64,000 bases of DNA, taken from assembly GCF_001425055.1 (NCBI RefSeq), contig NZ_LMDK01000001.1, forward strand, positions 447,845 to 511,844. Direction: 5' to 3'. A program made the position numbers and the translations under genes. This document shows positions 3,524 through 51,649 of this stretch, in pieces. The stretch is from Pelomonas sp. Root1237. Its GTDB lineage: Bacteria > Pseudomonadota > Gammaproteobacteria > Burkholderiales > Burkholderiaceae_C. The stretch's first letter is position 1. Each line of letters begins with the position of its first letter. The notes under the pieces were generated by a model. The model did not search any database. It saw nothing but the letters and a program-made list of their open reading frames with translations, and had not been told where the DNA came from.

Positions 3524-4492
3524 CTACCGCGACCTGACCTGCAGCGGCGGCGCAACCGGGAAGCGCTGGTCCGGCTTGGCTGCGCGCTTGTAGAGGCCCT
3601 CGACCTTGGGCAGGTTGGCCTGGATGTCGCGGATGCGCGTCGTGCTGGCCGGGTGGGTGGACAGCCATTGCGGTGGCGCGCCCTTGTTGGCCGTCATCAT
3701 CTTTTCCCACAGGCGCACGGCGGCGGCGGGGTCATAGCCCGCACGGGCGGACAGCTCGATGCCGACGAGGTCGGCCTCGCTTTCGTCGTCGCGGCTGAAG
3801 CGCAGGTTGACCAGTTGGGCCCCCATGCCGGCCAGGCCGCGGCCCACGTTGCCCAACCCCAGCAAGGCCGAGCCCAATTCCACGATGCCGTTCGTGAACG
3901 CCGACTTGCCGACGCGCTCGCGGGCATGCTCGCGCAGCGCATGCGCGACCTCATGGCCCATGATGGCGGCGACCTCGTCGTCTTCCAGCTTGAGCTTGTC
4001 GAGGATGCCGTAGAAGAACGCGATCTTGCCGCCCGGCATGCAGAAGGCGTTCAGCTGCGCGCTGGCCAGCAGGTTGACTTCCCACTTCCACTGCCGGGCG
4101 CGGTCGTTCCATTCGTAGCTGAAGGGAATGATGCGCTGGGCGATGTAGCGCAGCCTCTGGGCCTGGGGGTGGTCCATCGGCGCCAGGGCACGCTGCTGGC
4201 CGGCCTCGCGCATCATCAGCGCGTACTGCTGGCCACCGGCCTGTTCCAACTGGTCGGCCGACACGAAGCCGGTGAACTTGCTCTTGGGCCCGACCTCCAC
4301 GCCTTCGCGTGCCCAAGCTGGCATGAACGCTGCGGCACCGGTAGCGGCAAGCAGCCCGGTGAACAGGCGGCGGCCGCGCAGGGCCGGGGGCGCGCAGCGG
4401 CCGGCGGCGCAGTCGGCGCAGTCGCCGAACATGCGCGTCGGCGGGTCAGTGAACTGCAGGTCGTCGCGGACCTGGAAGTCGTCGGCATCCAT
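3524..4492 (-). CDS. M48-family metalloprotease, exported
   Basis: A zinc peptidase of about 322 residues related to LoiP/YcaL/BepA-type M48 proteases, which act on outer-membrane or envelope proteins. It shows the zinc signature HEVAHALREHARER (HExxH) near the middle and the third ligand in ESEAD. The N-terminal region contains RGRRLFTGLLAATGAAAF ending AWA, which reads as a Sec- or Tat-like signal with twin arginines. An unusual cysteine-rich stretch (CADCAAGRC) lies before the signal. The start is uncertain: ATG 4492 is used, ATG 4432 is possible, and the frame is open to 4591. It is divergent from the flavin reductase gene. Confidence 0.85.
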   Translation of the reverse strand: MDADDFQVRDDLQFTDPPTRMFGDCADCAAGRCAPPALRGRRLFTGLLAATGAAAFMPAWAREGVEVGPKSKFTGFVSADQLEQAGGQQYALMMREAGQQRALAPMDHPQAQRLRYIAQRIIPFSYEWNDRARQWKWEVNLLASAQLNAFCMPGGKIAFFYGILDKLKLEDDEVAAIMGHEVAHALREHARERVGKSAFTNGIVELGSALLGLGNVGRGLAGMGAQLVNLRFSRDDESEADLVGIELSARAGYDPAAAVRLWEKMMTANKGAPPQWLSTHPASTTRIRDIQANLPKVEGLYKRAAKPDQRFPVAPPLQVRSR

Positions 4493-4563
4493 GCCGACAT
4501 TGTGCTTGGGCGGCGATGGCGGCTTTCGTAGGACAGCGGCGCGGGACTGGCGACAATCACCCC

Positions 4564-5040
4564 ATGGACAGCCAGCAATTCCGCGCCGCACTGGGCATGT
4601 TTGCCACCGGCGTGACCATCGTCACCGTTCGCGCTGCGGACGGCGGCCTGGTCGGCCTCACCGCCAATTCCTTCAACTCCGTGTCCTTGGACCCGCCCCT
4701 GGTGCTGTGGAGCCTGGCGCGCCGCGCCGGCTCCATGCCGGTGTTCTCGCATGGCTCGCATTACGCCATCAACATCCTCGCGGCCGACCAGAAGGAGCTG
4801 GCCCAGCGCTTCGCGACGCGTGACATCGATCGCTTCGCCGGCGTGGCCTGGCACGAGGGCGCGGGCGGCGCGCCGGTGCTGGAGGGGGCTGCTGCCGTCT
4901 TCGAATGCGCCAACCGCAGCCGTTACGAGGAGGGCGACCACGTCATCTTCGTCGGCGAAGTCGAGCGTTGCTCGTCCCGGCTCGGCGCTCAGCCGCTGAT
5001 CTTCCACGGCGGCCGTTATTTCACCGAGTTGCCGATCTAG
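4564..5040 (+). CDS. Flavin reductase family protein
   Basis: A 158-residue FMN-binding protein of the flavin:NAD(P)H reductase type, the small component of two-component flavin monooxygenases. The family hallmarks are clear: MFATGVTIVT, then GLTANSFNSVSLDPPLVLW, and a C-terminal HGGRYF. The start at MDSQQFRAALG matches the family. No partner monooxygenase is adjacent, so the pathway is unknown. It may supply reduced flavin to an oxygenase elsewhere or act as a general flavin reductase. Confidence 0.9.
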   Translation: MDSQQFRAALGMFATGVTIVTVRAADGGLVGLTANSFNSVSLDPPLVLWSLARRAGSMPVFSHGSHYAINILAADQKELAQRFATRDIDRFAGVAWHEGAGGAPVLEGAAAVFECANRSRYEEGDHVIFVGEVERCSSRLGAQPLIFHGGRYFTELPI

Positions 5041-5130
5041 GGTTTTTTCCGGGTTGGCGTTGTCGATCCGGTCGGGCTCTGATCGTCGTCATGACAGAGG
5101 GCCATCCTCTGTCCAACTACGGAACCCATC

Positions 5131-5574
5131 ATGACCAACACCGTCACCCTGCACCGCGTGCTGCGCTGCCCGCCCGATCGCGTCTACCGCGCCTTCACGA
5201 CACCGGCCGCCATGGCCAAGTGGCTGCCGCCGCATGGCTTTACCGGCACCGTCCACGAGATGGACGCCAAGGTGGGCGGCACATACAAGATGTCGTTCAC
5301 CAACTTCACGACCGGCGGCGGCCACAGCTTTGGCGGCCGTTACCTGGAACTGGTGCCCGGCCAGAAGCTGCGCTACACGGCGGCTTTCGACGACCCCAAC
5401 CTGCCCGGCGAGATGACGACGACCGTCGAGCTGCGCGCCGTGTTCTGCGGCACCGAGGTGCACATCAAGCAGGAAGGCATCCCGGCCATGATCCCGGCCG
5501 AGGCCTGCTACCTGGGCTGGCAGGAGTCGCTGACCCTGCTGGCCCAGCTGGCCGAGCCGGAAATCAACCAGTAA
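5131..5574 (+). CDS. SRPBCC family protein (AHSA1/START-like)
   Basis: A 147-residue protein of the AHSA1-like branch of the SRPBCC fold. It has the typical opening (HRVLRCPPDRVYRAFTTPAAMAKWLPP), a central GGTYKMSFTN...FGGRYLELVPGQKLRYT, and the C-terminal helix with LGWQESLTLLAQLAEP. Members bind hydrophobic ligands in a deep cavity, and many have no known role. It stands alone between the flavin reductase and a repeat element. Confidence 0.88.
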   Translation: MTNTVTLHRVLRCPPDRVYRAFTTPAAMAKWLPPHGFTGTVHEMDAKVGGTYKMSFTNFTTGGGHSFGGRYLELVPGQKLRYTAAFDDPNLPGEMTTTVELRAVFCGTEVHIKQEGIPAMIPAEACYLGWQESLTLLAQLAEPEINQ

Positions 5575-39162: not shown

Positions 39163-40372
39163 CGCGCGCCGCGGCGGGGAAGCCGGCGGCCATGCCGTCC
39201 ACCAGCAGGCGCAGCCCGGTTGAGCCGCCGGTGAAGTAAAGGGCGTCGATCTGGCCGGCCTTCAGGCCGGCAAGCGCCACGGTTTCGTGGGCGGTCGAGA
39301 TGATGCGGTCGAGGTCGGCGCGCAGCGCGTCCACCGCGGTCTTCTCGCTCAGCGGCAGCACCAGGCCGGTCTCGATGTGACCGAGGTCCACCGTCGTGTC
39401 CTCGCCGCCCGACACGGCAATCTTGGCGCCCTCGGCGCGAGCGGCCAACTCGTGGCCCAGGCGCTCCTCCAGCACCGTCATCAGCCGGGCGTGCTGGCGC
39501 ACGTCGCTGAACCAGCTCTTCATGCCGCGCCACTCGGCCACGCGCAGCGGCGAGTAGCAGGTGTTGATCAGATGCCAGGTGGCCAGGTCGAAATAGATGC
39601 CGCTGGGCACCTCGCGTCCGCTGGGTCCCGTGGTGCGGTAGCCGAACTCCTGCAGCAGGCCGGCGAGTTCGATGTGGCGGTCGAAATCGGTGCCGGCGAT
39701 GTGGATGCCGTGGCTGGCCAGGATGTCGTCGCGGCGCGCCAGGCGCTGCATGCGCTCGGGGCCGACGCGCACGATGGAGAAGTCGCTGGTGCCGCCACCG
39801 ATGTCGGCGACCAGCACGACCTGTTCGCGCGTCGCCTGCTGCTCGAAGTCGAAGGCCGCCGCGATCGGTTCGTACTGGAAATGCACCTCGCGAAAGCCGA
39901 CCGCGCGGGCACAGGCCTCCAGCTGGGCCTGGGCGGCCGCATCGCGCTCGGGCTCACTGTCGACGAAGAACACCGGCCGGCCCAGCACGGCGCGCTCGGG
40001 TTCGCCGGCCAGGCGGCGCAGCCGCTTCAGGTAGCCGGCGACGATGTCCGAATACTTGGCGCCGCGGCCGCCGCCCACATCGGTGGTCTGGTCGATGAGG
40101 GGCGAGCCGAGGATGCTCTTCATCGAGCGCATCAGCCGGCCGTCGTGGCCCTCGACATAGGCAGCCACGGCGGCGCGGCCGAAGGCGCGCGGCGGGCCGT
40201 CGGCGTCGTGGGCGCCTTCGGTGAAGTAGAAGACCGCGGTCGGCATGGTGCGTTGAGCCGGTTCCAGCTCGATGAGATGCATCTCGCCGGCGGCCGTGCT
40301 GGCATTGGGCACCGCCACCGCGGAATTCGACGTGCCGAAGTCAATCGCGCAAAAAGGGGGAGGGGCAATCAT
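39074..40372 (-). CDS. Hsp70-like ATPase (YegD type)
   Basis: A 432-residue protein with only the Hsp70/actin ATPase domain. It has phosphate-1 CAIDFGTSNSAVAV, phosphate-2 LVADIGGGTSDFSIV and adenosine motif ALYFTGGSTGL, with no substrate-binding domain. This is the layout of YegD, an Hsp70 relative of unknown client. ATG 40372 starts MIAPPPFCAIDFG; the frame is open to 40660. Its 3' end overlaps the UPF0149 gene on the other strand. It is divergent from the TPR lipoprotein gene, with a 105-base gap. Confidence 0.88.
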   Translation of the reverse strand: MIAPPPFCAIDFGTSNSAVAVPNASTAAGEMHLIELEPAQRTMPTAVFYFTEGAHDADGPPRAFGRAAVAAYVEGHDGRLMRSMKSILGSPLIDQTTDVGGGRGAKYSDIVAGYLKRLRRLAGEPERAVLGRPVFFVDSEPERDAAAQAQLEACARAVGFREVHFQYEPIAAAFDFEQQATREQVVLVADIGGGTSDFSIVRVGPERMQRLARRDDILASHGIHIAGTDFDRHIELAGLLQEFGYRTTGPSGREVPSGIYFDLATWHLINTCYSPLRVAEWRGMKSWFSDVRQHARLMTVLEERLGHELAARAEGAKIAVSGGEDTTVDLGHIETGLVLPLSEKTAVDALRADLDRIISTAHETVALAGLKAGQIDALYFTGGSTGLRLLVDGMAAGFPAAARVSGDRFASVATGLGLHARRLFGPAAASMA

Positions 40373-40477
40373 TCGAATTACGGCCCTGGGAGGCCAGTCC
40401 TGACAAGTCCTGAAAAGTTCGGAGGAAAGGGCGCGGATTCTAGGAACACAATCGCGCGCCTGATTTGCGGAGATTCG

Positions 40478-43264
40478 ATGAAGACGCGCCATTTCGCTCC
40501 CCTCCTGCTGGCTGCCGCACTGGCGGCCTGCGGCCAACGTTCCGAGCAGGACCTGCTCGCCGCCGCGCAAAAGCGCATGGAGCAGAAGGACGTCGGCGGT
40601 GCTGTCATTGAACTGAAGAATCTGCTGCAGCAGAACCCCGAGAACGCCAAGGCCCGGCATCTACTGGGCAAGGCGCTGCTGGATGCCGGTGACGTAGCCG
40701 GCGCCGAGATCGAGTTGCGCCGGGCCTGGGAGCTGGGCGCGCCGCGCGACGAACTGGCGCCGCTGCTGGCGCAAACGCTGCTGCTGTCCGGCCAGTCGCG
40801 CAAGTTGATCGGCGAATTCTCCGACCAGACCCTGGCCGACCCCGTGGCCCAGTCGACGTTGCAGCAATACCTGGCCATGGCCTTCCTGGCTCAGGGCAAC
40901 GTGACCGAAGCGAAGGCGGCGGCCGGGCGAGCCCTGCAGCTGCAGCCCGAGTCCGAGGACGCCATCATCGTCAGCGCCCGCACCAAGGTGGCCGCCGGCT
41001 TTCCCGACGAGGCCCTCGCGGCGCTGGACCAGCTGATTCTGAAGAACCCCAAGGCGGGCAAGGCGCTGCTGCTCAAGGCCGAGGTGCTGCTGGCGCGCGG
41101 CAAGATGGATGAGGCCGAGCCGCTGCTGCGCGAAGTGCTGGTGCTGGATCCGCGCTCCTACGACGCGCGCTCGCTGCTGCTGCGCCTGGCGTTCGGTCGC
41201 CAGCAGATCGACGTGGCGACCAAGCTCGTCGACGAAATGCCGCCGGATCTCGCCAAGAAGCCGCAGGGTCGTTTCATGCAGGGCCAGCTCGCGCTGGCCA
41301 AGGGTGATGCGGCCAAGGCGAAAGAGCTGGCCGTGCCCCTGCTCAAGGTGATGCCCAACTACCTGCCGCTGCTGCGCCTGGCCTCGGGAGCCCATCAGCA
41401 GTTGGGCGAGCTTGCCGACGCGGAGAACCTGCTCAACCAGGCCCTCAAGCTCGCGCCCGAGGACCTGGCGCTGCGCCGCCAGTTCGCCGGGCTGCAGCTG
41501 CAGCGGCGCTCGCCCGCCAAGACGCTGGAGACGCTGCGCCCGATGCTTGAAAGCGGCCGCGCCGACGCCGACTCCCTGCTGATGGCCGGCAAGGCCCAGC
41601 TGATGCAGGGCAATTTCGAGGCTGCCGATCAGGCCTTCGGTGCCGCCGCCAAGCTGCGCCCTGACGACGCCAAGACCACCGCGGCCCTGGCACTGTCGGC
41701 CATCATTCGCGACAGCGCTGCGCCGGGCGGCGCCAGCCGGGCCAAAGCCGACGCGGCCATGAACCAGCTGCGCGACATTGCCGCCAAGGACAGCGGCAGC
41801 AGTTACGACCTGATGCTGATCAATGCGCTGCTGCGGCGCAATGACCTGCCTGCGGCCCTGGCAGCCCTGGACAGGCTAGCGCCCAAGATGAAGGACAGCC
41901 CGGTGCCGGACGGCCTGCGTGGGCGGATCCACCTCGTCCGCAAGGACACGGCGGCGGCGCAAGCCTCCTTCGAAGCCTCGCTGAAGGCCGATGCCGGCTA
42001 TCTGCCCGCCGTGCTGGGCCTGGTCACGCTGGACATGCAGGCCAACCGCAGCGAGGCCGCGGTCAAGCGCCTGGAGAGCTTCGTCACGACCCAGCAGCAT
42101 TCGCCGCAGGCCCGCTTGGCCCTGGCCGACCTGCTGGCGCAGACGCGTGCGCCGGTCGATCGCGTCACCGAGGTGCTCGCCGCCGGCGTGCGCGAGGAGC
42201 CGACCGAGGCCGCACTGCGCGTGTCGTTGATCGACCACTACCTGCGCAACGGCGACGCCGCCAAGGCCGCCCAGGCGGCGCAGGAGGCCGCCGCCGCTCT
42301 GCCGCTCAACGCCGACCTGCTGGAGCGCCTGGCACGCACCCAGCTGGCGTCGGGCGACAAGGCCCAGGCTGCCAAGACCTATACGCGCTTGACGGTGATG
42401 GCGCCCACGCGCGCCCAAGGCTGGCTGGGCCTGGCCCAGCTGCGCTTCATGGAGAAGGACGACGCGGGCGCCGAGCGCGAGGTCAAGCGCGCGCTGGAAG
42501 CCGAACCGGCCTCTGTGCCGGCCCAGCGCCTGCTGATCCAGCTCGCCGCCCGCCAGGGTCGCGTTGACGAGGCGCTGACCGCCCTGCGCGAGCGCCAGAA
42601 GAAGAATCCGCAAGAGGCCTTTGCGCTGATGGCCGAGGCCGAGATCGAGAGCAATCGCCAGCACTACGACGTCGCCATCGCGGCCCTGCGCAAGGCCGTC
42701 GCCCTGCGCGAGCCGGCCGACGCCGCACCGCGTCTGTTCTCGGTGTTGATGGCGGCCAAGAAGCGTGACGAGGCGCAGGCCTTCGAGACCCAGTGGGCGG
42801 CTGCGCACCCGCAGGACCAGAGCTTCCCGGCAGCCACGGCCGACATCCTGCTGGCCCGCGGCGAACTCGACCCGGCGCTCGCCCGCTATGAAGCCCTGCT
42901 CAAGCGCAACCCTGACGCGCTGCCCATCATCAACAACGTCGCCTGGCTGCGCAGCAAGACCGGCAAGCCCGGTGCGCGCGAACTGGCCGAACGTGGCCTC
43001 AAGCTCAACCCCGACTACGCGGCCTTGCGAGACACCTATGCCACCGTGCTGGCCAACGAAAAGGACTTCAGCAAGGCGATCAGCGCGCAGCGCCAGCTCA
43101 TCAGCGACCAGCCCGACCAGCCGGCCTACAAGCTCAACCTGGCACAGATCCTGATCCAGTCCGGCGACAAGCCGGCCGCCAAGGCGGAGCTTGAAGGCCT
43201 GGCCAAGCTGGGCAAGAAGTTCCCGCAGCAGGCCCAGGTCGAGGCGCTGCTGAAGACGCTCTGA
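40478..43264 (+). CDS. prsT: TPR-repeat lipoprotein, PEP-CTERM system PrsT-like
   Basis: A 928-residue exported TPR protein. The N-terminus is a lipoprotein signal with LAAC (Cys 18), and GGAG precedes the ATG by 5 bases. The rest consists of about 20 degenerate 34-residue TPR units, such as ALLDAGDVAGAEIELRRAW and LNQALKLAPEDLALRRQF. Length, start and repeat spacing match the PEP-CTERM/XrtA system TPR protein PrsT. No exosortase, prsK/prsR or EPS gene is present in the window. Its stop codon abuts dadA's, forming TGATCA. Confidence 0.8.
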   Translation: MKTRHFAPLLLAAALAACGQRSEQDLLAAAQKRMEQKDVGGAVIELKNLLQQNPENAKARHLLGKALLDAGDVAGAEIELRRAWELGAPRDELAPLLAQTLLLSGQSRKLIGEFSDQTLADPVAQSTLQQYLAMAFLAQGNVTEAKAAAGRALQLQPESEDAIIVSARTKVAAGFPDEALAALDQLILKNPKAGKALLLKAEVLLARGKMDEAEPLLREVLVLDPRSYDARSLLLRLAFGRQQIDVATKLVDEMPPDLAKKPQGRFMQGQLALAKGDAAKAKELAVPLLKVMPNYLPLLRLASGAHQQLGELADAENLLNQALKLAPEDLALRRQFAGLQLQRRSPAKTLETLRPMLESGRADADSLLMAGKAQLMQGNFEAADQAFGAAAKLRPDDAKTTAALALSAIIRDSAAPGGASRAKADAAMNQLRDIAAKDSGSSYDLMLINALLRRNDLPAALAALDRLAPKMKDSPVPDGLRGRIHLVRKDTAAAQASFEASLKADAGYLPAVLGLVTLDMQANRSEAAVKRLESFVTTQQHSPQARLALADLLAQTRAPVDRVTEVLAAGVREEPTEAALRVSLIDHYLRNGDAAKAAQAAQEAAAALPLNADLLERLARTQLASGDKAQAAKTYTRLTVMAPTRAQGWLGLAQLRFMEKDDAGAEREVKRALEAEPASVPAQRLLIQLAARQGRVDEALTALRERQKKNPQEAFALMAEAEIESNRQHYDVAIAALRKAVALREPADAAPRLFSVLMAAKKRDEAQAFETQWAAAHPQDQSFPAATADILLARGELDPALARYEALLKRNPDALPIINNVAWLRSKTGKPGARELAERGLKLNPDYAALRDTYATVLANEKDFSKAISAQRQLISDQPDQPAYKLNLAQILIQSGDKPAAKAELEGLAKLGKKFPQQAQVEALLKTL

Positions 43265-46648: not shown

Positions 46649-46870
46649 ATGCGATTCGTTCCAGCGCTGCGCTTCTTCCGCCGAGACGTCGCTGCGCGCA
46701 GCGAGCCGGATCCCGCCGACCTCGGCACCGCCTTCGGCCTGGATGCCTGCTTGGACGGCGTGGGCGTCAGCGAATATCGCAGCCAGCCGCCCAGTGATTT
46801 CCTCGAATCCCAGTCGTCTGTCGCGATTCAGGAATCGCCGCTGAGCTGGTTGTCGCGCCGAACGGCTTAG
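46649..46870 (+). CDS. Small hypothetical protein
   Basis: A 73-residue ORF starting MRFVPALRFFRRDV, with GAGG 7 bases before ATG 46649. It has a short amphipathic N-terminus, then the acidic DPADLGTAFGLDACLDGVG, and ends in LSWLSRRTA. There is no signal peptide or TM. Its stop overlaps the stop of the convergent pssA-like gene (TTAG). The family is not recognised, and whether it belongs functionally to the adjacent cassette is unknown. Confidence 0.5.
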   Translation: MRFVPALRFFRRDVAARSEPDPADLGTAFGLDACLDGVGVSEYRSQPPSDFLESQSSVAIQESPLSWLSRRTA

Positions 46871-47484
46871 AGTTTCGGAATCCGAATCCGGCTCACCATC
46901 AACGAGCCGGATAGCGCGAACATCAGCACCAGCGGGTGCAACTTGAAGCCCGCCAGCCACCAGACGCCACCCCATAGCGCGTCACCGATGGCCCCCTGAA
47001 CCGCGGCCACCCACAGCACAGCCACAAGCAGCATGGACGTCGGAATCGGCGTGCCCTCGAAATACGCCACCTTGTCCGAGCCTGCGCTGAGTTTTTCCGC
47101 CGTCACGTTGTAGCGCGCCAGCCGGCTGACGCCGCAGGCGACGAAGAACACCAGCACGATGCGGTCATACAGCCCCTGCATGCCGCAGCCGTAGGCGATC
47201 GCCGCGGGCGCGACGCCGAAGGAGATCACGTCGGCCAGGGAATCCAGCTCGCGGCCCAGGGCCGAGCTCTTCTGGCGCCAGCGCGCAATGCGGCCGTCCA
47301 GCACGTCGAAGGCCAGCGCCAGCGGAATCAACGCACAGGCGTATTGCAGATGTTGGCGCTCGCCGGTCTGCAGGAAGCTCATCACGGCGAACAGGGCGCC
47401 CATGCCGGCGCAGGCATTGCCGAGGGTGAACCAATCGGCGAGATGGAACTCGCGGATCATCGAAAAGGGCTTGGGTTTTTCCAT
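46867..47484 (-). CDS. pssA: CDP-alcohol phosphatidyltransferase (PssA-like)
   Basis: A 205-residue inner-membrane enzyme with about six TMs. The catalytic signature D-x2-DG-x2-AR-x8-G-x3-D-x3-D is complete in DVLDGRIARW...ALGRELDSLAD. It resembles bacterial phosphatidylserine synthase, which transfers a phosphatidyl group from CDP-diacylglycerol, but other alcohol acceptors are possible. A very strong ribosome site (GAGGAGGAGG) precedes the ATG. It follows the nucleotidyltransferase gene by 13 bases, so it is probably the last gene of the HPr-rel-A cassette transcript. Confidence 0.85.
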   Translation of the reverse strand: MEKPKPFSMIREFHLADWFTLGNACAGMGALFAVMSFLQTGERQHLQYACALIPLALAFDVLDGRIARWRQKSSALGRELDSLADVISFGVAPAAIAYGCGMQGLYDRIVLVFFVACGVSRLARYNVTAEKLSAGSDKVAYFEGTPIPTSMLLVAVLWVAAVQGAIGDALWGGVWWLAGFKLHPLVLMFALSGSLMVSRIRIPKL

Positions 47485-47497
47485 CAGGACCTCCTCC

Positions 47498-48613
47498 TCA
47501 ACGCTGCTCCAGCGGATCGATGTCGTCGCGCCGGGACGGGCTCGCAGGCGGCCGGCTGACCGCTTTCACGACGAGATGAGGCACGAGCAGATGCAGTGGC
47601 ATGCGAAGGTAATGGCTGCGAACGAAGAGCGCAAACTCGGCAACGCGCGTGCCCGGCGCCATCGAGCCGCGGTGGGCGCTGGTCAGGGCCCGCCTCAGCA
47701 AGCCCTGCATCAGCCAGCGCAACAGGGGGCCGGGGCGGGCAGGGCAGCGCTCCAGCACATCCTCGGGGACGGGTGTGTGCAGATGGCGCCGGCACAGGCA
47801 AAGGGCATAGAACAGCGGCCGGCCCAGCGACAGGGTTGCGGCGCGCGCCAGCAAGGTGTTCCAGAAGCCAGGCTCGACAGCATGGCGGCGCAACAGGCTG
47901 TCGAGATCACTGAGGTCGCGCAGGCCGTGCCCCCATTCGCCCTCGTGCATCAGATGCGTCGCGCTGTGCAGGATCTGGTCCGGCGCCGACGGCAGGCTGA
48001 AACGCGGGAATTCCGTGACCGGCTGGGCGGCCGCCAGAAGCGGTGCGCTGTGGGTTTTGATGCGCGCCGTCAATGGCAGGATGTTGTGGTGCAGGTCCAG
48101 GTTGGTCTGGCGGCGCAGGTGCACCATCGGCGGTAGCTCGTGCATCCACCGTCGGTAGTAGCGTTCATCGTAGGCTGTCCCCGCAGCACTGGCCCAGCCA
48201 CCGAGCATCAGCGCCGCCTCCGCCTCGTCGAGCTGCTCACGCGGCACCAGGATGTCGATGTCCGAGAACAGCCGGCCCGGGGCTGGCGGCAGGTCGCCGG
48301 CGACATAGGCCGCGCCCTTGAGCAGCATCACGGGGCCGGGGAGGCTTGCCAGATCGCGGGACAGCAGCACCAGCTCCCAGCGCACGGCGCGCCGCTGTTC
48401 CTGGGAAACGGCCAGCAGCGCGCGCATCTGGCGGCGCACGGGCAAGGGCAGTGAGCGCTCGACGCCCGCCTCACGGGCCAGCGCACCCAACCGGGCCAAC
48501 AAGCCGGCCGACACGGCCTGGCGCAGCAGCAGGTCCCAGGTCGCTTCGCCATGGGAAGCCATGAAAGCCGGCTCGCGCAAGGAGCGCAGCAGCGGTTCCC
48601 ATGCCGGCGTCAT
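47498..48613 (-). CDS. Nucleotidyltransferase family protein (HPr-rel-A cassette)
   Basis: A 371-residue protein of the NTP_transf_5-like nucleotidyltransferase group. The fold core is MLLKGAAYVAGDL (about 96-108) and the metal-binding FSDIDILVP (about 116-124). A large helical domain with many Arg/Leu and conserved HDL/HLMHEGEW-like motifs follows. Such enzymes may add nucleotides or move phosphate onto proteins or peptides; the real target is unknown. It overlaps the upstream kinase gene by 4 bases and lies in the same transcript. Confidence 0.8.
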   Translation of the reverse strand: MTPAWEPLLRSLREPAFMASHGEATWDLLLRQAVSAGLLARLGALAREAGVERSLPLPVRRQMRALLAVSQEQRRAVRWELVLLSRDLASLPGPVMLLKGAAYVAGDLPPAPGRLFSDIDILVPREQLDEAEAALMLGGWASAAGTAYDERYYRRWMHELPPMVHLRRQTNLDLHHNILPLTARIKTHSAPLLAAAQPVTEFPRFSLPSAPDQILHSATHLMHEGEWGHGLRDLSDLDSLLRRHAVEPGFWNTLLARAATLSLGRPLFYALCLCRRHLHTPVPEDVLERCPARPGPLLRWLMQGLLRRALTSAHRGSMAPGTRVAEFALFVRSHYLRMPLHLLVPHLVVKAVSRPPASPSRRDDIDPLEQR

Positions 48614-49515
48614 GACTTCAGCCCGTCAAGCGTGGCCAGCCCTTCCGCCAGGTCGGAGTAGCAGAAATCCCAGCACCCGCACGAATCGATCAACGCCGCC
48701 GTCAGCTCGAAGCCCACCCGGCCCAGCATGCTGTAGTTGAACGCATGGCCGGCAAGCCGTTCGAAGGCCTGGGCCTTGGGCACCGGCGCCAGCTGCGTCG
48801 GCGCGCCGGCGTGCCAGCGCGGAAAGATCAGCTGCGTAGGCCGCGCCTGCTGTTGCTGGCCGGTCACGCTGGCGGCCGACGCGCGCAAATGGGAGACCGT
48901 GCCCTTGTGCGTGTCGCGGGCCGCCTCACCCAAGACGGCCTGCGGGGAGAAGCGGCGGATGATGGCGATCGACTGGTTCTTCAGGCTGACCGGACGGGCC
49001 AGCGGTGCGACCTGCCCGTCATCGCGGTCGATCATGGCCATCTCGTCAGAGAGCAACCGCCAGCCCGACAGCATCAGCGCGGCCGTCAGCGTGCTTTTGC
49101 CGGCACCGGGGTCGCCCGGCATGACGAGGCATTGGCCGTCTTTCTCGAGTACCGCCGCGTGGAAGAGCAGGTAGTGATTCGCCTGGCTGGCCAGGCACCA
49201 GTTCATGCCCCATTCCAGCAGAGCGAAGGCGTGGTTGGCAGGCAGCGGCAGAAAGGGGCTGTGCTGATCCAGCCGGAATTCCACCTGGGCGCCAAGCCAG
49301 CGCCGCAGCCCGGTGACAGGCTGCACATGCACGTGGAAGTCGGCGATGCCGCCCTCGGGTTCCAGCTCGAAATCCGCGTACAGCGCTGCCAGGCCCGCCG
49401 CCACGGGCGGGCAGCTGCTGTGGATGCGGTAGGCGAAGGGGCCAGTCCTGAGCGTCAGGCCGTCGTGCAGCCGTTGGCCAAGTTCCGCCGGGGCCAGCAT
49501 GCCCAGCGTCAGCAT
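48610..49515 (-). CDS. HprK-related kinase A
   Basis: A 301-residue protein related to the catalytic domain of HPr kinase/phosphorylase. The P-loop GDPGAGKSTL is at about 134-143, followed by LSDEMAMIDRDDGQ, corresponding to the HprK DE/D catalytic region. The N-terminal 120 residues are a separate domain (FAYRIHSSCPPVA, HVHVQPVTGL). No HPr/PTS gene is nearby. It is the hallmark of the HPr-rel-A cassette: a PqqD protein immediately upstream (7-base overlap) and a nucleotidyltransferase immediately downstream (4-base overlap). Its target is unknown. Confidence 0.85.
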   Translation of the reverse strand: MLTLGMLAPAELGQRLHDGLTLRTGPFAYRIHSSCPPVAAGLAALYADFELEPEGGIADFHVHVQPVTGLRRWLGAQVEFRLDQHSPFLPLPANHAFALLEWGMNWCLASQANHYLLFHAAVLEKDGQCLVMPGDPGAGKSTLTAALMLSGWRLLSDEMAMIDRDDGQVAPLARPVSLKNQSIAIIRRFSPQAVLGEAARDTHKGTVSHLRASAASVTGQQQQARPTQLIFPRWHAGAPTQLAPVPKAQAFERLAGHAFNYSMLGRVGFELTAALIDSCGCWDFCYSDLAEGLATLDGLKS

Positions 49516-49784
49516 CGCTGGACCAACAACAGCTGTTCGAGCTGTTGCAGCACATCGGCGGTCATTTCCGAATCGGCATCCATCAGCGCAGCCAGTTCGT
49601 CGAACTCCGCAGGCGGCTGCTCGGCGAGGCGTCGTAGGGCGGGTACCAGCCAGGCGGCGAGGCGATGGGTGTCGTTGGACAGCGCGTGATGCACGAGGCA
49701 ATCGTCACCCCAGACCCTGATCGACAGATCGGCCCCGTAAGTGAGCGCCCATCGAGGCGTTGACACTGGATCGGTGGTGGTCAC
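49509..49784 (-). CDS. PqqD-family peptide chaperone, HPr-rel-A system
   Basis: A 91-residue PqqD-like protein. It has the winged-helix RiPP-recognition fold pattern: RVWGDDCLVHHALSNDTHRL (about 23-42), then helices with LAEQPPAEFDELAALMD and VLQQLEQLLLVQR. PqqD domains bind leader segments of ribosomal peptide substrates and present them to modifying enzymes. It is encoded just before the HprK-related kinase A and 70 bases after a secreted protein, so a peptide/protein substrate delivered to the kinase is the simplest reading (inference). Confidence 0.85.
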   Translation of the reverse strand: MTTTDPVSTPRWALTYGADLSIRVWGDDCLVHHALSNDTHRLAAWLVPALRRLAEQPPAEFDELAALMDADSEMTADVLQQLEQLLLVQRC

Positions 49785-49801
49785 GGAGTGGCTGCAGAAA
49801 G

Positions 49802-49831
49802 ACTTCGGGCGTCGCTACGGACGCCCGAAGT
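49802..49831 (-). terminator. Intercistronic hairpin before PqqD gene
   Basis: ACTTCGGGCGTC-gctacg-GACGCCCGAAGT is a perfect 12-bp stem in the 70-base gap between the secreted protein and the PqqD gene. On the minus strand it is followed by CTTTCT, an imperfect U-tract. It probably acts as a partial terminator or 3'-end stabiliser, raising the first gene's output above the maturation genes. Confidence 0.6.
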
Positions 49832-49854
49832 GTCACACCGACGGTGCCGGCCGC

Positions 49855-50592
49855 TCAGGAGTACAGGCTCTGGAAGTAAGCCATGACCTGGTTGGCGTCC
49901 CAGGAGACCGTCGTATTGACCTGGTATTTGCCGCCCAGCGGGCAGACGGCATTGAACATCTTGATGGCTTGGGCGACCGTGATCGGATAGTCGGTACCGA
50001 CGTTCAGCGCATTCAGGATGGTCGCCGCGGTGGCGCGGCCCAGCGCGTAGATCATCGTGTCGTTCTGGCCGCCGGGCGTATTCAGCACCTGCAGCAGGGT
50101 GGCCTTGCTCGTGCACAACCCGAACGCCGAATCGCGGTAGCCATAAACATTGCAGGCCGAGGACTCAGCCTTGTAGCGGAAGGCGTCCATCAGTGTCTGG
50201 CCACCGCTGATGAAACCTCCGAAGACGGTGCCCTTGTTGCCGCCGAAGCTGCAACTCGCCGTGGGCAGAGTGCCCTTCAGCGTGCCGGCCGGCCAGGTGC
50301 TTGCGTTCTTCCAGTAGCCGGGCGACTTGCCGAGGAGCTTGCAGTCCGCCTTGCCAGGCCGCGGCGACGCATTGCCGGACATCTGGCCCGACACGGTGCA
50401 GTTGTAGGCCTGGCTCGCCAGCGCCGGTTTGCTCAACAGGCTGCCCAGCACGACCGGCGTGGCCGCGCCCGCTTGGGCAAAGCGTCGGCGGGACGCGTTC
50501 ATCCGGGTCGAGGTCGGCCGGCCGGCGGACGCGTCGACGGAGGCCGGCACCTTGGGCGTCGACTGCGGGTCGTTGATTTGGCGTTCGCTCAT
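49855..50592 (-). CDS. Tat-exported six-Cys protein, putative cassette substrate
   Basis: A 245-residue protein of unknown function. An N-terminal hydrophilic extension (1-31) precedes a Tat signal (NASRRRFAQAGAATP, RR near 35-37, cleavage after ALA at 59). The mature part has six cysteines (about 65, 84, 114, 147, 160, 217) and a motif KSPGYWKNASTWPAG, found in many secreted proteins, then helical C-terminal repeats ending FQSLYS. A six-Cys exported protein next to PqqD and HprK-related kinase is likely the processed target (inference). GAGG lies 9 bases before ATG 50592. The 178-base upstream region has no clear promoter consensus. Confidence 0.75.
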   Translation of the reverse strand: MSERQINDPQSTPKVPASVDASAGRPTSTRMNASRRRFAQAGAATPVVLGSLLSKPALASQAYNCTVSGQMSGNASPRPGKADCKLLGKSPGYWKNASTWPAGTLKGTLPTASCSFGGNKGTVFGGFISGGQTLMDAFRYKAESSACNVYGYRDSAFGLCTSKATLLQVLNTPGGQNDTMIYALGRATAATILNALNVGTDYPITVAQAIKMFNAVCPLGGKYQVNTTVSWDANQVMAYFQSLYS

Positions 50593-50770
50593 GACAGTGT
50601 GCCTCGTGGATCCGTTTTTGGGTTGCACCAGACTAGGGCACAACTCGCTCTGGGCGTCAGAGCGGGCCGATGCTAATAGGGGGCTCGGCGGTTTGGATGG
50701 CAGTGTTTCACACAAAGCCTTTTGGGGGTCATCTGGCGCCCCCTTGATTGGGTGGGCCTGAATCAGGGAC

Positions 50771-51649
50771 TTAGAGGGCGGCTGACGAAAACGTGTCACA
50801 TGTCTTCAGATCGCCCGCTTCCAGGCCGCGCTTGAACCAGCGAACACGCTGCGCGCTGCTGCCGTGGGTGAAGCTTTCGGGCACGACGGCGCCCCGGGAG
50901 CGCTTTTGCAGGGTGTCGTCGCCGATCTGGGAGGCGGCGTTCAGCGCCTCCTCGATGTCGCCTTGCTCCAGCCAGCCTTTGCTGCGCTGCGACAGATTCG
51001 CCCAGACACCGGCAAAGCAGTCAGCCTGCAGCTCCAGCTTGACGCTCATGGCGTTCGCCTCGCGCTCGGAGACGCGGCCGCGGGCGCGATCCAGCTTTTC
51101 GGTCGTGCCCATCAGGTTCTGCAGGTGGTGGCCGACCTCGTGGGCGATGACATAGGCCTGGGCGAAGTCGCCCGGCGCGCCCAGGCGCTGTCGCAAGGTG
51201 TCGTAGAAGCCCAGGTCGATGTAGACCTTGCGGTCGGCGGGGCAGTAGAACGGGCCCATGGCGGCCTCGCCGGTGCCGCAGCCGGTGGGCCAGCGGTCGC
51301 GGAAGATGACAAGCTTGGGAGCGGGGTATTGCTGGCCTGCGCGTTGGAAGTAGGCGCCCCAGACGTCTTCGGTATCCGCCAGTACCTTGCTGACGAATAC
51401 CGCACCCGGATCCTTGGGGTGTTGCTCGGCCGGCGCGCCCGGCTGGACCTGCGGCGCAGCGCCGCCCCCGCCGTCGAGCAGCCCGAGCACCGTCAGCGGG
51501 TTGATGCCGAAGGCCCAGGATGCCAGCAGGGCGATGACGACACCGCCCAGGCTCAGGCCGCGCCCGCCGATGGGCAGGCCGCCACCCCCGCTGCTGCTGC
51601 CACGGACATCTTCGACGTTGTCGCTCTCACGCTGGCCATCCAACTTCAT
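50771..51649 (-). CDS. Neutral zinc metallopeptidase (YpfJ type)
   Basis: A 292-residue membrane-anchored peptidase. It has a Gly/Ser-rich N-terminus, one TM (about 33-57), and a periplasmic catalytic domain with the zinc motif [14 protein letters not shown] (HExxH). This is followed by [16 protein letters not shown], where the glutamate/aspartate third ligand sits. It matches the YpfJ/zinc metallopeptidase family, whose substrate is unknown. It is transcribed toward the HPr-rel-A cassette's secreted gene, separated by 178 bases. Confidence 0.92.

Follow-up and report, generated by a model that had tools for sequence, protein, structure and literature searches.

The window analyzed here is a 64,000-nucleotide stretch of the Pelomonas sp. 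Root1237 genome (contig NZ_LMDK01000001.1, positions 447,845 to 511,844), and our subject is a minus-strand gene cassette within it that centers on an HprK-related kinase A. Five open reading frames (ORFs) are packed at 46867..50592, and their checked coordinates, including overlaps of 7 bases between the PqqD-like and kinase genes and of 4 bases between the kinase and nucleotidyltransferase (NTase) genes, confirm the layout given in a preliminary description of this DNA. Seventy bases separate the gene for an exported Cys protein from the PqqD-like gene, and 13 bases separate the NTase from a PssA-like gene. Profile scores clearly place the kinase in HprK-related kinase A and the NTase in PF14907, while the PssA-like protein barely exceeds its family cut-off (Table 1). 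Neither Pfam nor NCBIfam has a model that matches the 245-residue exported protein at E ≤ 1.

Table 1. Genes and sequence features of the cassette and its surroundings (positions in the window; family scores with their cut-offs where given)
Feature	Position	Strand	Details
Tat-signal/Cys protein, substrate candidate (class A, GYW type)	49855..50592	-	245 aa, six Cys
Twin-Arg signal and presumed leader, SRRRF..LLSKPALA, residues 34-59	50416..50493	-	leader profiles; cleavage after A59 by eye
C65-x2-S68-G-x2-S72, proposed acceptor serines just past the signal	50377..50400	-	invariant in 42 substrates; putative acceptors
PqqD-like protein (PqqD_rel_X), presumed substrate-presenting	49509..49784	-	91 aa; TIGR04353 27.4 bits (cut-off 35)
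HprK-related kinase A	48610..49515	-	301 aa; TIGR04352 383.5 bits (cut-off 200)
PF14907 (NTP_transf_5) nucleotidyltransferase	47498..48613	-	371 aa; PF14907 174.5 bits (cut-off 31.2)
Flank gene, PssA-like CDP-alcohol phosphatidyltransferase	46867..47484	-	TIGR00473 pssA 112.2 bits (cut-off 107)
Flank gene, YpfJ zinc metallopeptidase	50771..51649	-	NF050010 368 bits
Neighbor PrsT, XrtA/PEP-CTERM tetratricopeptide repeat protein	39287..43264	+	TIGR02917 582.5 bits (cut-off 312.2), residues 406-1306

The working unit of the cassette is four genes, not five: the exported protein, the PqqD-like protein, the kinase and the NTase. A scan of 300 order genomes put the kinase family above the TIGR04352 cut-off in 50, the window's included; we then fetched the loci of the remaining 49 and screened all 50 with iterated profiles. 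The packed arrangement is not due to chance, for the kinase recurs in those 50 genomes and PqqD-like and NTase genes were present at every one of the 50 loci. Relatives of the exported protein were found at 45 of the 50, with a common signal region and little else shared. A PssA homologue and YpfJ each occurred at a single order locus, that of the window, which rules out YpfJ as a cassette member.

The exported protein is very probably the substrate of the cassette. A profile of the signal region, or leader, built from the 45 relatives was run on 130 loci, comprising the 50 order loci and 80 named loci (80 of 235 relatives from one genome-collection scan). It detected a leader ORF on the same strand less than 4 kb from the kinase at 121 loci (E < 0.05). 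Six further loci (L035, L039, L050, L051, L118 and L146) carry a correctly placed leader ORF as judged by eye, and one (L130) has it immediately beyond the NTase in the opposite orientation, bringing twin-Arg-signal ORFs near the cassette to 128 of 130; the other two loci (L114, L152) stop at a contig edge. The 121 loci collapse to 115 distinct ones, some organisms being present twice, with the gene order substrate-PqqD-kinase-NTase in 102 and the substrate after the NTase in 8. The preliminary description had singled out the exported Cys protein as the natural candidate substrate and proposed a search for its homologues beside other such cassettes; that search was run, and the absence that would have spoken against the idea was not seen. 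At L051 a single ORF (4162-5487) matches PqqD over residues 10-48 and the kinase over 141-433, possibly a natural fusion, and second, partial NTase matches lie close to the cassettes of L044 (10864-11220) and L065 (10892-11053).

Substrate and kinase also go together at the level of whole genomes. Profile A2, made from 42 substrates of the window's class (41 from loci L081 onward, 38 of them by a GYW-like pattern plus L081-L083), matched 46 of the 300 order genomes: 43 of 50 kinase-positive versus 3 of 250 kinase-negative (Fisher's exact p 6e-41, a value that shared ancestry inflates, as it does all co-occurrence tests of kinase, substrate and XrtA reported here). Kinase-positive genomes missed by A2 were G092, G118, G157, G210, G224, G240 and G254. 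None of the three kinase-negative matches is a whole substrate: in G108 and G184 the core domain alone matched, within frames of 1,046 and 1,301 aa, and in G132 a short, chance-like twin-Arg match fell in a 785-aa frame.

Leader searches gave a similar result within the genus and beyond it. Leader profile A5 (58 listed leaders minus L076, L103, L119, L136 and L138) found the cassette ORF in 18 of 20 genus genomes at E values from 3e-12 to 0.001, missing G312, where a contig end cuts the ORF, and G318, a weak case reaching E 0.0093 with another leader profile. The cassette ORF was the best match in the window's own genome (E 4e-10; next match E 0.098), and one genus genome, G308, had an off-cassette match at E 5e-4. 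Among distant kinases, 18 of 20 fetched loci had a leader ORF, several of them recognized by eye or pattern. In the two of four matching plasmid records that we examined, from Vibrio alfacsensis and Sphingomonas parapaucimobilis, a leader-bearing 'hypothetical protein' occupies the same cassette position. The Vibrio alfacsensis plasmid cassette (L236) adjoins 2-aminoethylphosphonate transport genes.

The substrate family joins a conserved signal to a variable core. By pattern and eye alone, its members have the features of a twin-arginine translocation (Tat) signal, namely twin Arg (114 of 115 loci), a hydrophobic stretch and an A-x-A type cleavage site, and they range from 123 to 282 aa across the 115 loci. 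Over 98 class A loci, the class of the window's protein, mean identity is 0.43 for the leader, 0.28 for the core and 0.51 for the kinase. The enzymes thus adjoin a precursor whose leader is conserved and whose core varies, as expected of ribosomally synthesized and post-translationally modified peptides (RiPPs). An AlphaFold2 (AF2) model of the window's protein was weak (predicted local distance difference test, pLDDT, 64.2) and had no PDB match at E ≤ 0.001, leaving a known fold unsupported.

Two serine motifs distinguish the two core classes. The 42 aligned class A substrates, selected by the GYW-like pattern, have a mean column identity of 19%, and their invariant columns are R35, R36, C65, S68 and S72. 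The preliminary description had drawn attention to the six Cys residues, of which Cys65 alone is invariant and Cys84 nearly so, and we rejected Cys as the modification target on that ground. Of 99 class A proteins, 89 carry the pattern C-x2-4-S-x3-S downstream of the signal (40 of the 41 A2 rows and 49 of 58 others), and of 50 short-core proteins none does. Conversely, a C-terminal [ST]C[WFY]xS[FLIV] motif occurs in 39 of the 50 short cores (38 of 49 distinct) and in none of the 99, and the two motifs never occur together. The short cores were hand-picked from three sets, with L159 and L242 being the same protein; the collection omits L261 (an 82-aa frame), L035, L145 and two plasmid proteins, and L145 is counted among the 99. 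In one set (L271-L279), all nine proteins resemble the one on the Sphingomonas plasmid and carry GFTC[FY]ASLQ near the C-terminus.

The family also has outliers and relatives of other kinds. The leader-like ORF of L035 (9294-9737) has a core rich in Ser, Gly, Asn and Ala. Class A GYW domains without a leader are also present in large adhesin-like proteins (L231, L232, L233 and L235), and three large GYW-domain proteins that we scanned contain SdrD_B, DUF11/DUF7507 or cadherin/Big_9 repeats.

Kinase clades track the class of the substrate core. In a FastTree phylogeny of 142 kinases, from which the kinase fragment L200 was excluded, clade I (20 rows) takes in every short-core locus among the first 130 apart from L145 and L035. 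A class A core profile matched 0 of 16 clade I loci and 95 of 99 with other kinases, the latter being the group on which the profile was trained. Kinase distance correlated with core distance across 98 loci (rho 0.44, p 0.005, 199 permutations).

Kinase and NTase both appear to be active enzymes, judging by the catalytic-type residues that they retain. H119, G137-x-G139-K140 and D157-E158 are invariant in 28 kinases (alignment A1, 28 of the 50 order loci), and the P-loop stretch aligns to the HPr kinases 1jb1 and 2qmh at E 0.0014-0.0015. D118-x-D120 and D173 are invariant in 35 NTase sequences (alignment A3, with 34 of 39 listed NTases; L087, L116, L120, L128 and L153 dropped). The PqqD-like protein, aligned with 26 others (alignment A4, leaving out L113, L117, L147 and L160), has an invariant T39 and a nearly invariant H40.

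Between their conserved flanks, cassettes differ from one another as whole blocks. All 20 genus genomes have a kinase match, 19 above the cut-off, at the same site wherever flanks are readable. Median pairwise identity in the flanks is 90 for dadA (minimum 78), 87 for lysR (79) and 83 for alkP (66), versus 45 for the NTase (37), 45 for the kinase (29; L200, a kinase fragment, included) and 28 for the exported protein (19). Single linkage at 65% divides the genus kinases into six types at this one site, and on the 142-kinase tree the 19 genus rows require five changes, four of them forced by starred branches. In one type, represented by five genomes (L190, L191, L193, L196 and L198), the cassette is inverted relative to the conserved flanks, and on the short contig of L182 it is inverted relative to alkP.

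Homology breaks mark the borders of the exchanged unit. Among 14 loci of other types with a readable left side, nucleotide homology to the window on that side stops at 47,475-47,489 in 3 and at 46,860-46,911 in 9, and continues into the NTase or kinase at L192 and L197; at L184, L187 and L200 it stops between PssA and NTase. Homology picks up again on the right at 50,504-50,804 in 10 of these 14 loci and farther away in the other 4, and short islands of 63-72% persist inside the replaced stretch. A PssA paralogue occurs in 10 of 20 genus genomes, in all 10 beside the cassette. The window's copy is 90-98% identical to those of the nine other carriers, the other PssA copies in the ten carrier genomes are 34-37% identical (34% for the other copy in the window's genome), and two Paucibacter loci also have the gene (80-83%). 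As PssA stands beside three cassette types, it belongs to the site itself and lies outside the exchanged unit. Together with its presence at 1 of 50 order loci, its distribution in the genus and the breaks between PssA and NTase rule it out as a member of the cassette, in which the preliminary description had grouped it with the PqqD/kinase pair.

XrtA, the exosortase of an exopolysaccharide-associated protein sorting system, is a frequent companion of the cassette, not a requirement. At least one of six XrtA/PEP-CTERM families lies in the fetched flank of 67 of 122 distinct loci, one representative of each neighbor family having been verified against NCBIfam. In the window, PrsT lies about 3.6 kb beyond PssA, the coding portion of its ORF being residue 406 onward, and the genome has an XrtA on another contig. 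XrtA exceeded its cut-off in 47 of 50 kinase-positive order genomes versus 26 of 250 others, and in 25 of 61 kinase-positive genomes of a phylum sample versus 10 of 337 others, the phylum figure ruling out a strict requirement. An S1C-type (trypsin/HtrA-like) serine protease gene lies near 38 of 122 loci, 33 of them within 2.5 kb (for example L034, 5935-6729), and such a neighbor could process the exported protein.

We consider it somewhat probable that the four genes form one protein-modification module. Gene linkage, the shared signal, the variable core, class-specific serine motifs, the tracking of core class by kinase clade and replacement of the cassette are its observed basis. Lasso peptide clusters offer a template (PMC9266682, PMC8498205, PMC7533575): an HPr-kinase homologue phosphorylates a C-terminal Ser, the nucleotidyltransferase PsmN puts a hexose on the Ser phosphate, and PqqD is reported alongside lasso HPr kinase and nucleotidyltransferase in rumen genomes. 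The preliminary description, which held the chemistry of the cassette to be unknown, was therefore too pessimistic. Since the cassette has the same three parts as lasso tailoring, without a cyclase, we propose that a conserved Ser is phosphorylated and then extended by the NTase.

On this scheme, the exported protein would be made with a twin-Arg signal doubling as leader. In the cytoplasm, the PqqD-like protein would hold the signal region and present the protein to the HprK-type kinase. The kinase would phosphorylate conserved serines, namely Ser68/Ser72 in the window's class or the Ser of the C-terminal [ST]C[WFY]xS motif in short-core proteins. By analogy with PsmK/PsmN, the PF14907 NTase would then add a nucleotidyl or sugar group to the phosphate. 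Tat would export the finished protein, the signal would be cut off, and the product would act extracellularly, in XrtA-type bacteria perhaps within their exopolysaccharide matrix or close to it. Phosphorylation of the exported protein by the kinase seems reasonably likely to us; extension of that phosphate by the NTase, which leans on the lasso analogy, we put forward more tentatively. For the role outside the cell, a matrix protein is our first guess and a strain-recognition factor our second.

Several observations weigh against a four-gene modification module. Modification of the exported protein is proposed from gene content and sequence. The PqqD-like protein scores below the TIGR04353 cut-off, though its position and alignment agree with PqqD, and two short-core proteins (L145, L035) are paired with kinases outside clade I. 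No leader ORF was found at two of the 20 divergent loci (L266, L281), and just 22 of 26 short phylum loci have one (L251, L253, L254 and L260 lack a match; G569 is in both distant sets, as L252 and L283). The serine patterns were composed after the sequences had been read, and not every member fits them exactly: the exceptions number 10 of 99 in class A and 11 of 49 among the short cores. The window's class is without a C-terminal Ser acceptor of the PadeK kind (0 of 99 with the strict motif). No positive selection was seen among the five alleles of the window's type, the core included, and 36 of 61 kinase-positive phylum genomes are without XrtA above the cut-off.

The exported protein might instead be co-inherited cargo, with the PqqD-like protein as a Tat proofreading chaperone and the kinase and NTase acting elsewhere, on a matrix sugar or another protein. 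The frequent proximity to XrtA and exopolysaccharide genes (67 of 122 loci) suits such a role, as does the inferential status of the modification. Against it stand the signal-bearing ORF at 128 of 130 loci, the agreement of kinase clade with core class, the blockwise differences between conserved flanks and the two invariant serines within an otherwise variable protein, and we regard it as unlikely.

Diversity at the site raises the further possibility that the modified, exported protein is an antibacterial or kin-recognition factor. This would account for the six kinase types that the 20 genus genomes show at a single site whose flanks are conserved. We find it less plausible still, given that the four-gene unit has no fifth, immunity-like gene, that matrix-type variation would yield an identical pattern and that selection within the window's type is purifying. 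Across its five alleles the ratio of nonsynonymous to synonymous polymorphism (pN/pS) is 0.31 in the core, 0.21 in the signal, 0.74 in the stretch before the twin Arg, 0.23 in the kinase, 0.27 in the NTase and 0.14 in dadA, below 1 throughout. PADLOC returned no match for the four cassette proteins and PHROGs none for three of them, and a defense or phage origin of the cassette was rejected on that ground.

Partner kinases control some MenT toxins, and the NTase could accordingly be imagined as a MenT-like toxin restrained by the kinase, the two forming a toxin-antitoxin pair that has captured a passenger. Its AF2 model is confident (pLDDT 92.6), and the nearest folds are the nucleotidyltransferases MenT1 and ANT(2''), matched weakly and none at E ≤ 0.001; the NTase has no PDB sequence relative at E ≤ 1. 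A Tat ORF and PqqD at nearly all loci do not fit such a pair, nor does retention of the kinase family in 20 of 20 genus genomes, at the same site wherever flanks are legible, and we hold this reading to be very improbable. The earlier suggestion that the exported protein receives a phospholipid head group through PssA, as its supplier or as the attaching enzyme, draws on the position of PssA 13 bases past the NTase and beside the cassette in all ten genus carriers. It is largely refuted, since the gene is missing at 49 of the 50 loci in the order and in 10 of the 20 genus genomes, keeps 90-98% identity beside three different cassette types and is followed by homology breaks at L184, L187 and L200, all of which mark it as a flank gene.

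The modification module that we favor makes an orphan cassette directly testable through its substrate family. If it is correct, the phosphorylate-then-extend logic of lasso tailoring has been carried over to full-size exported proteins, and a Tat signal acts as a modification leader. That alleles differ at one site suggests a product exposed to selection between strains. A broader and more doubtful generalization is that phosphoglyco- or phosphonucleotidyl-proteins exported by Tat form a class that is widespread in Proteobacteria. Their Tat signal would serve as a RiPP-type leader for the PqqD-like protein and couple export to finished modification, and the four-gene allele exchanged at a fixed locus would help to type the extracellular matrix of XrtA-bearing bacteria.

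The cassette corresponds to the 'HPr-rel-A system' of NCBIfam (TIGR04352, TIGR04353): its kinase is a clear member, and the PqqD-like gene, kinase and PF14907 NTase follow one another as they do there. The two NCBIfam model names cover the kinase and the PqqD chaperone only, and two public records list the substrate as a 'hypothetical protein'; here a substrate family with two serine-motif classes is added. In the open-access library that was searched, we found no paper on the HPr-rel-A system name, TIGR04352/TIGR04353, PF14907 or the model names, and none joining exosortase, PEP-CTERM and HPr kinase. The XrtA/PEP-CTERM exopolysaccharide system occupies the same genomes and often the same neighborhoods, but the window's exported protein has no Pfam match to a PEP-CTERM sorting signal at E ≤ 1, and many cassette lineages have no XrtA. 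HPr kinase/phosphorylase (1jb1, 2qmh) shares with the cassette kinase the P-loop, the preceding His and the following acidic pair; a short stretch alone aligns (E 0.0014), the N-terminal part differs and no HPr is among the cassette genes.

RiPP systems provide the closest parallels. In bufferins and other RiPPs made by MNIO enzymes, a signal peptide replaces the ordinary leader and is possibly part of recognition, and some bufferin-type precursors are very long (PMC12452194). Those systems use Sec signals and MNIO/DUF2063 enzymes, whereas the cassette's signal is twin-Arg (the main text of PMC12452194 does not contain the word Tat) and Pfam and NCBIfam scans of the cassette proteins gave no MNIO family. 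Lasso clusters have a PqqD protein of their own, lasso B1. Tailoring by PadeK, SyanK and PsmK/PsmN combines an HPr-kinase homologue, PqqD and an 'uncharacterized nucleotidyltransferase' much as the cassette does, PsmN being a putative counterpart of the PF14907 NTase. No lasso B2 protease or C cyclase was found among the eight window genes scanned for them. The cassette substrate differs from a lasso peptide in carrying a Tat signal and in its length of 123-282 aa, and where the lasso acceptor is a C-terminal Ser, the candidate serines of the window's class lie near the signal instead.

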